Below are positions 6,651 through 8,211 of a DNA stretch of 33,686 nucleotides, one piece after another. The stretch comes from an uncultured Bacilli bacterium (GTDB lineage Bacteria > Bacillota_I > Bacilli_A > RF39 > UBA660), in the NCBI GenBank assembly GCA_944368875.1, contig CALVXF010000052.1:1-33686 (forward strand), in the 5' to 3' direction. A program made the translations under genes and the position numbers. Each line of letters begins with the position of its first letter. Positions within the stretch are counted from its first letter, which is position 1. The notes beneath the pieces are model-generated. The model was not told where the DNA came from, did no database searches, and saw only the letters and a program-made list of their open reading frames with translations.

Positions 6651-6990
6651 TAATATTCTATAAGCCATGTTCTGTTTCTATTTCTAGATGACAAACATTT
6701 ATCTATCGATTGCTCGATCCTATAGATACTTATCTTTCGCATCTATTAGGTTCCCTTACCATAATTTAGGTTTCTCGCTTGCGGAGTTTACCTCGTTTCA
6801 TTCTTCCATTCCTAGAAGACTCGTTTCTGTGGCACTTTATGAGGTTAACCATCATAGGTCACTTCTCGTCGTTAGTTAAAAACTACCAAAGGTTATTTTT
6901 TCCCTTTGCACAAACACTACAATCATCACAGATTGTGCGAGCATGGACTTTCCTCTATATTTAAAATACAGCGTTTGTCCGAATATTATT
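6651..6990 (-). ncRNA. rnpB: RNase P RNA (bacterial type)
   Basis: This is the catalytic RNA that trims tRNA 5' leaders. Diagnostic conserved blocks are visible in order on the minus strand: GAGGAAAGTCCATGCTCGCA near the 5' end, GTGCCACAGAAACGA, AACGAGGTAAACTCC, GCGAGAAACC, and ACAGAACATGGCTTATAG near the 3' end. The ends pair as helix P1: AATAATATTC (6990-6981) with GAATATTATT (about 6657-6648). It lies immediately downstream of gpsB, a common Bacillota arrangement, and its 5' strand includes the gpsB stop codon. I found no convincing promoter inside gpsB, so it may be processed from a joint transcript. Confidence 0.95.
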
Positions 6991-7309
6991 CTTTCCCATA
7001 AATAATTTTTTCTAAATTAGACAACCTTCTTAAAACATCAGCACTGCTGACTTCGCCAGTTGCGCTTTCTTTCATAATATCTAATTTAGTTCTTAGGGCA
7101 CGAATTTCTTGCTTTAATTTCATATTTTCTTCAAGCACTTCTTTGCGATCATTTTCAGCTTCTTTAAGTAAAGATATAAATTCTTCATAATCACTGATTA
7201 TAAGATCAAGAAACTTATCAACTTCTTGTGGTCGATAACCTCTTGTATCGATTTTGAATTCTTTTTCTAAAATATCTTTACTTGTCAAAGTAATACGATC
7301 TTGATACAT
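6986..7309 (-). CDS. gpsB: Cell-cycle protein GpsB (DivIVA family)
   Basis: A 107-aa cytoplasmic coiled-coil protein that coordinates penicillin-binding proteins between elongation and septation. The N-terminal membrane-binding/coiled-coil part reads LTSKDILEKEFKIDTRGYRPQEVDKFLDLI (about residues 8-37), followed by a long coil, and the C-terminal oligomerisation end is DVLRRLSNLEKIIYG, all typical of GpsB. The length is normal. AGGTGG precedes the ATG. Its stop codon overlaps the 5' strand of rnpB. A possible promoter is the extended -10 TGCTATTAT upstream. Confidence 0.95.
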   Translation of the reverse strand: MYQDRITLTSKDILEKEFKIDTRGYRPQEVDKFLDLIISDYEEFISLLKEAENDRKEVLEENMKLKQEIRALRTKLDIMKESATGEVSSADVLRRLSNLEKIIYGKE

Positions 7310-7377: not shown

Positions 7378-7412
7378 AAAAAACTACTTGTCTTTTTCAA
7401 GAAAACAAGTAG
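7378..7412 (-). terminator. Terminator overlapping the small ORF's 3' end
   Basis: An 11-bp stem (7402-7412 with 7384-7394, one G-U pair) with a 7-nt loop is followed by six U (7383-7378). The stop codon of the small ORF lies in the 3' arm. Confidence 0.75.
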
Positions 7413-7482
7413 CTATTTTAATATAAGTGATATTCCCTATCATCTCATCAAATAAACTATACAAAGATTCTTTCTTAATCAT
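7384..7482 (-). CDS. Small ORF (32 aa) with hairpin-sequestered ribosome site
   Basis: An unrecognised 32-codon ORF starts with ATG at 7482 and ends with TAG at 7384. The peptide begins MIKKESLYSLFDEMIGN, continues with a short hydrophobic stretch (ITYIKIATCFL) and ends EKDK. Evidence that it is a real unit: AAGGAGG lies 5 nt before the ATG; a sigma-A promoter (TTGCAA, 17 bp, TATAAT) is upstream; and a terminator overlaps its end. The ribosome site is the loop of a perfect 12-bp inverted repeat whose 3' arm holds the start codon. It is upstream of gpsB on the same strand and could be a regulated peptide, a leader peptide or part of a small RNA. No homologue is known to me. Confidence 0.5.
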   Translation of the reverse strand: MIKKESLYSLFDEMIGNITYIKIATCFLEKDK

Positions 7483-7502
7483 AAGTCCTCCTTATGATTA
7501 AG
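7474..7502 (-). promoter_or_regulatory. Perfect 12-bp hairpin enclosing the SD and start codon
   Basis: On the minus strand CTTAATCATAAG, loop GAGGA, then CTTATGATTAAG. The loop is the Shine-Dalgarno core and the 3' arm carries the ATG, so folding would hide both from the ribosome. Confidence 0.7.
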
Positions 7503-7519
7503 ATAACAAAAACTCTTCT

Positions 7520-7600
7520 ACTTGTCTTCTAATTCGACATAACTAGTGTATATTCGTCCCGACAAGTCAGTATTATACTCTATTTTTAAAATATTTGCAA
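7520..7600 (-). promoter_or_regulatory. Promoter and structured 5' leader of the small ORF
   Basis: The -35 element TTGCAA (7595-7600) and -10 element TATAAT (7572-7577) are 17 bp apart, predicting a start near 7565. The transcript would begin with ACTTGTC (7567-7561), which pairs with GACAAGT (7526-7520), a 7-bp stem closing a 34-nt interval. Confidence 0.65.
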
Positions 7601-7644: not shown

Positions 7645-8211
7645 TTAATTACAGGTTTTCCCTCTTATATATTTTTTACATTCTCCGTTGTTAGAATCGA
7701 TTACATATTTAACGGTTTCTCCTTCATAACCGCTACCATCACTATTAACAAAACAATATTGGCTTTCTACTTCTTGCCACTGTGAATAATCACAGCTTTT
7801 GTTAATCGCAACTTCTTTTTTTTCTTTACTTGTTCCAATAAAAGGTATATAACCTACAAAAAGGCCAATTGTAAAAGCGATTAAGAAATATAAAGCAATA
7901 TTATCCCAACCAACATTTTTAATTGAATTTAAATTATCTTTTTCACTAACTTTTTTAACCCTATTTTTAGTTTTAACTTCTTTTTGATAATAGGCAAAAC
8001 ATTTTTTAATATATTTATTTATTATCTTAATTAAGTTTCTAAAGTGTCTATATAAATATTTATATATTATATTTATATCTTGTTGAAAAGAATGATAATC
8101 AACTGTATCCCATAATCTATGATATAACAAATCTAGTTGTTCGATATTTTTCAATAATTCTTTAATCTCACGATTTGTTCTAGCTTTTTTTAGCTTTTTC
8201 TTCCTTTTCAT
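7645..8211 (-). CDS. Unknown single-pass membrane protein with a four-Cys outer domain
   Basis: A 188-aa protein I do not recognise. The N-terminal part (residues 1-100) is very basic and rich in Lys, Tyr and Ile, with helical character. One transmembrane helix lies at about residues 104-125 (NIALYFLIAFTIGLFVGYIPFI). The last 60 residues should be outside the cell and hold four Cys (140, 153, 178, 187) in a CDYSQWQEV...YC...GSGYEGETVKYVID...C...C pattern that loosely recalls a thrombospondin-type or other disulfide-closed module. It has its own promoter, just after the DHHW gene. The gene is well supported and its function is unknown. Confidence 0.7.
   Translation of the reverse strand: MKRKKKLKKARTNREIKELLKNIEQLDLLYHRLWDTVDYHSFQQDINIIYKYLYRHFRNLIKIINKYIKKCFAYYQKEVKTKNRVKKVSEKDNLNSIKNVGWDNIALYFLIAFTIGLFVGYIPFIGTSKEKKEVAINKSCDYSQWQEVESQYCFVNSDGSGYEGETVKYVIDSNNGECKKYIRGKTCN

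Follow-up and report, generated by a model that had tools for sequence, protein, structure and literature searches.

Why would a bacterium bury the ribosome-binding site of one of its own genes in a perfect hairpin? The question is raised by a 32-codon ORF in the 33,686-nucleotide stretch of DNA analysed here (the window), which comes from a 0.9-Mb genome that probably belongs to the GTDB order RF39 and whose near relatives are uncultured Bacilli/Mollicutes MAGs. The initial annotation described, on the minus strand, a 12-bp hairpin with the core of the Shine-Dalgarno (SD) sequence in its loop and the ATG of the ORF in its 3' arm, together with an intrinsic terminator overlapping the end of the ORF, and the letters bear out each of these elements (Table 1); the arms match perfectly, and a 13th A-U pair lengthens the stem. 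This hairpin, which we call the lock, is one of four perfect 12-bp inverted repeats with loops of 3–8 nt in the window, where about 0.1 would be expected for its composition. The RNA of about 190 nt in which it was proposed to lie folds better than its shuffled versions (z = -4.25).

Table 1. Features of the locked small gene and its surroundings (positions in the window).
Feature	Sequence	Position	Strand	Remark
Co-directional upstream ORF		7645..8211	minus	188 aa, no family match
Upstream promoter-like site P1	TTGCAA-17-TATAAT	7572..7600	minus	P1 RNA would carry the lock
Spo0A-type 0A box	CTAGTTATGTCGAA	7533..7546	minus	family consensus CTAGTTTTGTCGAA
Weak -35-like element	AAGACA	7523..7528	minus	17 nt before the -10; read from the sequence
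Extended -10 of P2	TGTTATCTT	7500..7508	minus	TG 7508-7507, TATCTT 7505-7500
5' arm of lock	CTTAATCATAAG	7502-7491	minus	includes the last letters of the -10 and the putative P2 start
Putative P2 transcription start	A	7493	minus	7 nt past the -10; 11-nt leader
Hairpin loop	GAGGA	7490-7486	minus	SD core; full SD AGGAGG at 7492-7487
3' arm of lock	CTTATGATTAAG	7485-7474	minus	contains start codon ATG 7482-7480
32-codon ORF	MIKKESLYSLFDEMIGNITYIKIATCFLEKDK	7384..7482	minus	member of small-protein family
Intrinsic terminator		7382..7414	minus	overlaps 3' end and stop codon of the ORF
gpsB		6986..7309	minus	downstream; own promoter TTGACA-17-GAAAAT (7363-7335); outside the lock unit

The ORF was first met as a recurring small ORF in the regions upstream of gpsB in relatives. 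A profile search (E<=0.01) found the small protein in 112 of 386 genomes of the RF39-like Bacilli family, some of the matches being short, weak and doubtful, and in other genomes the small gene lies away from gpsB, so that this adjacency is not constant. The alignment of 26 members gives the consensus HIExIFxEMIEDVxYIKxxT, and AlphaFold2 models the protein as a single helix (residues 4–31, mean pLDDT 87). Searches of Pfam, NCBIfam, PDB, PHROGs and PADLOC returned no convincing family match. The suggestion of a small toxin kept silent survives as far as a small protein kept silent is concerned. Type I toxins are small hydrophobic membrane peptides paired with an antisense RNA; the protein here is predicted to be one helix with many charged residues, and it has no PADLOC match. 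Directly after gpsB, at 6656–6986 on the minus strand, the window also holds a class B RNase P RNA.

The element that decides how the hairpin is to be read was overlooked by the initial annotation: a promoter, P2, conserved much better than the proposed one, with the end of its -10 and its putative start inside the 5' arm. At 104 loci CTAGTTTTGTCGAA is followed by an extended -10 element, with 34 nt from TGTCGA to the -10 in 85 of them; TG is present in 89% of the loci, the T, A and T of TAnnnT in 91, 86 and 93%, and a purine stands at the expected +1 in 94%. The SD begins 6–8 nt past the -10 in most loci, which would place the start of transcription at the SD itself. Some 98 occurrences of the full promoter pattern were found in 243 genomes, compared with none for a reversed control. 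At L288, L292 and L316 this promoter precedes highly diverged small ORFs that neighbour a divergently oriented gene of ~190 aa; these ORFs are possibly distant members of the small-protein family. Of the 5' arm, an mRNA starting at A7493 would retain just three nucleotides and, because the -10 and the start lie on or beside this arm, could not form the lock; a lock is possible only in RNA that reads through from upstream or begins at an upstream promoter. In the P2 RNA the terminator is predicted to pair with a probability of ~1.0.

As to the control of P2, TTTGTCGAA is the 0A box to which Spo0A binds. The Spo0A domain is present in 73 of 78 family genomes, among them the window's genome, whose Spo0A scores 265.6 bits with TIGR02875 (cut-off 200). 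In that genome a P2-type promoter also precedes a cluster of spoIIAA-like, sigF-like, spoVAC, spoVAD and spoVAE genes, of which the spoIIAA-like and sigF-like members score below their own NCBIfam cut-offs. Judged by this sequence evidence, the small gene appears to be switched on by Spo0A. Nearly all examined sites of the pattern other than those of the small gene precede spoIIAA-like genes or a look-alike gene; the latter, seen at L297, L304, L307, L310, L314, L325, L327, L329 and others, encodes a ~79-aa protein that resembles the start of SpoIIAA and is STAS-like by eye, and it has the same Spo0A-type promoter and is divergent from a gene of ~360-390 aa. At L282:1082-3913 (contig C72 of G000) the order is spoIIAA-like, sigF-like and then spoVAC-spoVAD-spoVAE, with no spoIIAB between. 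A search with the SpoIIAB model gave weak matches only, mostly parts of larger ORFs, and none above the cut-off, as expected from the report that spoIIAB and spoIIE are absent or rare in RF39 (PMC10868615).

The promoter with consensus spacing that the initial annotation placed upstream, P1, is there as a promoter-like site and is conserved in one sister species (L061); it is unremarkable as a consensus match, with 14 such sites in the stretch for 8.9 expected, and it did not turn up in the other relatives that were read. The self-contained transcript of about 190 nt does not stand as the mRNA of the gene, since the conserved promoter starts on the 5' arm and the gene's own mRNA would lack the lock. 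Between the window and the sister, P1 and ACTTGTCGGGACGAA after it are strongly conserved and the upstream coding region has diverged. Lying just past the -10 of P1 (7553–7567, minus strand), ACTTGTCGGGACGAA might serve as an additional Spo0A site, of variant sequence, through which P1 is turned off; exact copies of TTGTCGGGACGAA after P1 were found only in the window and the sister. A DNA-level homology search with the 241-nt region returned the sister species and one weak further match, the remainder being chance matches. Four mutually complementary segments on the minus strand, at approximately 7567–7561, 7526–7518, 7412–7405 and 7392–7384 (ACTTGTC, GACAAGTAG, CTACTTGT and ACAAGTAG), are kept in L061 and might form an attenuator when transcribed from P1; the corresponding fold, ACUUGUC / GACAAGU / CUACUUGU / ACAAGUAG, is predicted in the P1 RNA of the window (~0.5) but not in that of L061.

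In P1 RNA and in read-through RNA alike, the lock is predicted to pair with a probability of ~1.0, and opening of the SD is predicted to cost 5.65 kcal/mol in read-through-like RNA, as against 1.04 in P2 RNA. No terminator was found between the upstream 188-aa ORF and P2, which makes this ORF a possible source of read-through. The calculations support the view that the small gene is genuine and carries a translation lock, which would block translation in vivo. We propose that synthesis of the ~32-aa protein is meant to await activation of P2 by Spo0A~P through the 0A box and the extended -10. The P2 mRNA would start at the SD and be freely translatable, whereas RNA from upstream, whether read through from the 188-aa gene or begun at P1, would carry the whole inverted repeat, fold into the 12-bp hairpin and hide both SD and AUG. 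The site of transcription start would thus decide which RNA bears the hairpin, and the hairpin would therefore not be a signal-responsive switch. With the start sites, Spo0A control and translation that we infer for this gene, a lock of the T4 lysozyme type probably insulates a developmental gene from read-through.

Locks at different loci differ in sequence and in geometry. The SD lies in the loop in the window, L063 and L279, and wholly or partly in the stem in L092, L252, L243, L272 and L258. The sister L061 retains the window's stem with one G-U pair, L066 and L065 have a homologous stem with the outer pair reversed and one bulge, and in L063 the same upstream position pairs with a different stretch, deeper in the ORF; in L065 and L066 the SD is costly to open in the short RNA too. 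These four loci and the window form one clade in a gpsB tree, with moderate support (86/82), so that their locks may share one origin. The ZIP-transporter clade and L096 are placed outside it.

Whether a locus carries a lock depends on the orientation of the gene upstream. Among the first 79 loci classified, with contexts assigned by an ORF heuristic, the seven strongest hairpins all have a co-directional upstream gene (Mann–Whitney p=5e-5), and most unlocked loci face a divergent gene, probably recU from a reading of its start. A swap test compared how each start region folds with its own 18-nt upstream arm and how it folds with the arms of all the other loci. For 28 co-directional loci without a terminator, the own arm gave -9.63 and the swapped arms -5.99 kcal/mol (0/10000 draws as low; p<1e-4), and for 75 divergent loci the values were -4.80 and -4.84 kcal/mol (p=0.56). 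The context hypothesis was drawn from the first loci seen, and a held-out set, which contains several related groups whose loci are not independent, gave -8.81 with own and -5.86 kcal/mol with swapped arms for 14 co-directional loci (0/10000), -5.09 and -4.32 kcal/mol for 15 divergent loci (p=0.07), and p=0.006 for co-directional against divergent energies. The swap result is stable across five sizes of the folded segment (z -7 to -11) and persists when each upstream gene contributes one value (12 groups, z=-6.0; 10 groups after removal of those of the window and L066, z=-4.6).

The co-directional upstream genes themselves differ, including those for a ZIP transporter, YbbR, PRC-barrel, YunB, LepA and unknowns, and a protein at L279 that reads as PheT. 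Taken one by one, only about half of the co-directional loci pair better than 95% of the shuffles of their own arm, compared with 11% of the divergent loci; L103, L115, L241, L248, L259 and L260 are weak co-directional cases, and locks also occur at some divergent loci (L097, L246). The excess cost of opening the SD in the long RNA separates the two orientations more weakly (p=0.005). L112, which is co-directional but has an intrinsic terminator before the box, has no lock. Locks appear to have evolved repeatedly in the relatives, mainly where an upstream gene would read in.

A lock general to all Spo0A-type promoters was tested and rejected: at 30 loci where other genes, mostly spoIIAA, carry this promoter pattern behind a co-directional gene, there is no excess pairing (-4.18 vs -4.35, p=0.67), although this control is weakened by several spoIIAA genes that lie almost against the gene before them, with which they may be deliberately co-transcribed. 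Neither co-directionality nor the promoter is thus sufficient by itself, and something about the small gene matters; the most economical explanation is that leaky expression of this gene would be costly. Harm from a leaky small regulator would explain why this gene is insulated and spoIIAA, under the same promoter, is not. A search for the RNA-binding domain of Rho found it in none of 58 family genomes, against 9 of 14 control genomes, so intrinsic terminators or locks may be the protections that remain. A broader proposal is that, with no Rho found in the lineage, hairpins that hide a ribosome-binding site evolve repeatedly as plug-in insulators whenever rearrangement puts the small gene behind a co-directional gene, and that the product of this small gene is a hitherto undescribed small regulator, harmful to growing cells when synthesized through leakage; this is possible, but we are somewhat doubtful of it.

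Other explanations of the hairpin have to be set against read-through insulation. The initial annotation suggested control by temperature, a ligand, RNase or an antisense RNA, any of which might open the hairpin of a riboregulator on the ~190-nt P1 transcript, and the conservation of P1 and the following region in the sister species, the better-than-shuffled fold and four segments that could compete around the terminator speak for such a switch. We nevertheless think it unlikely. Relatives lacking a conserved stem had been named in advance as the observation that would count against it, and the stem is missing from most relatives that retain the ORF, so an obligatory riboregulator is refuted on those terms; structure conserved across the relatives of the gene, as in a thermometer or riboswitch, is not what is found. 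P1 was not seen beyond the sister, the conserved P2 would yield an unlocked mRNA, and the four-segment alternative is predicted for the window's P1 RNA but not for that of L061. Rfam searches at gathering and relaxed thresholds gave RNase P only, apart from sub-threshold chance matches. An attenuator for gpsB, in which translation of the ORF as a leader peptide would melt the overlapping terminator, is the reading to which we give least credence: gpsB does come next and the terminator is suitably placed, but gpsB has its own promoter, whose TTGACA...GAGAAAAT arrangement recurs in relatives, the ORF stands apart from gpsB in other genomes, and its protein sequence is better conserved than that of a leader peptide.

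The palindrome might instead serve as a DNA operator, bound by a dimeric repressor and overlying the -10 and start of P2, and a long perfect palindrome on a promoter core is indeed a classic repressor position. The repeats of the relatives, however, are unrelated in sequence, arm length and centre, some have the SD inside the stem, and a dependence on co-directional upstream genes would not be expected of an operator, which leaves this reading very improbable. Chance self-complementarity of an AT-rich start region is hardly more credible and was already disfavoured: the window is AT-rich and has four such repeats, and the stem is missing in many relatives, but the number of repeats is far above that expected, and own-arm pairing greatly exceeds swapped-arm pairing across the 12 upstream-gene groups and in the held-out loci.

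Read-through insulation, if correct, brings a type of lock familiar from phage T4 to a developmental programme of bacteria and yields a testable context rule, with locks present where read-through is expected and absent otherwise. Attention is thereby drawn to a small protein without a name, which apparently belongs to the Spo0A regulon in uncultured gut bacteria and which growing cells seem to keep strictly unexpressed. The arrangement also suggests a way for a lineage with no detectable Rho to shield key genes from stray transcription.

A terminator insulator of Tn916 is described as barring gene expression by transcription from outside (PMC11658703). That insulator acts by termination, whereas the lock in the window would act by hiding the ribosome-binding site. 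IS10 and IS50 are protected from external promoters by fold-back of the read-through transposase mRNA, and here too an inverted repeat spanning the element's own promoter start would keep read-through RNA untranslated; the window locus, where neither terminal repeats nor a transposase was seen, is not a transposon. Spo0A-activated promoters of sporulating Firmicutes, for example that of the spoIIA operon, carry the 0A box TGTCGAA, and P2 shares their box, promoter geometry and genome context, with Spo0A encoded in the genome and a conserved 0A box at a fixed distance from the promoter. spoIIAA, in the same promoter class, has no lock, unlike the small gene. In phage T4 the lock of gene e (lysozyme) lowers synthesis ~100-fold, and read-through locks are also known for soc, 49 and I-TevI (reviewed in PMC3014915). 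As in the window, where the pairing is predicted at ~1.0, a long RNA initiated upstream of gene e hides SD and AUG in a helix, and RNA from the promoter adjacent to the ribosome-binding site is without the helix's 5' strand and gets translated, as is predicted here for RNA starting inside the 5' arm. T4 uses a phage late promoter, whereas in the window the small gene is chromosomal, its promoter is of the Spo0A type and its genome carries sporulation genes; unlike in T4, the locks of this family recur in different sequences according to which way the upstream gene points. New here are the setting, with its Spo0A-type promoter and undescribed small protein, the recurrence in different sequences and the dependence on genomic context.
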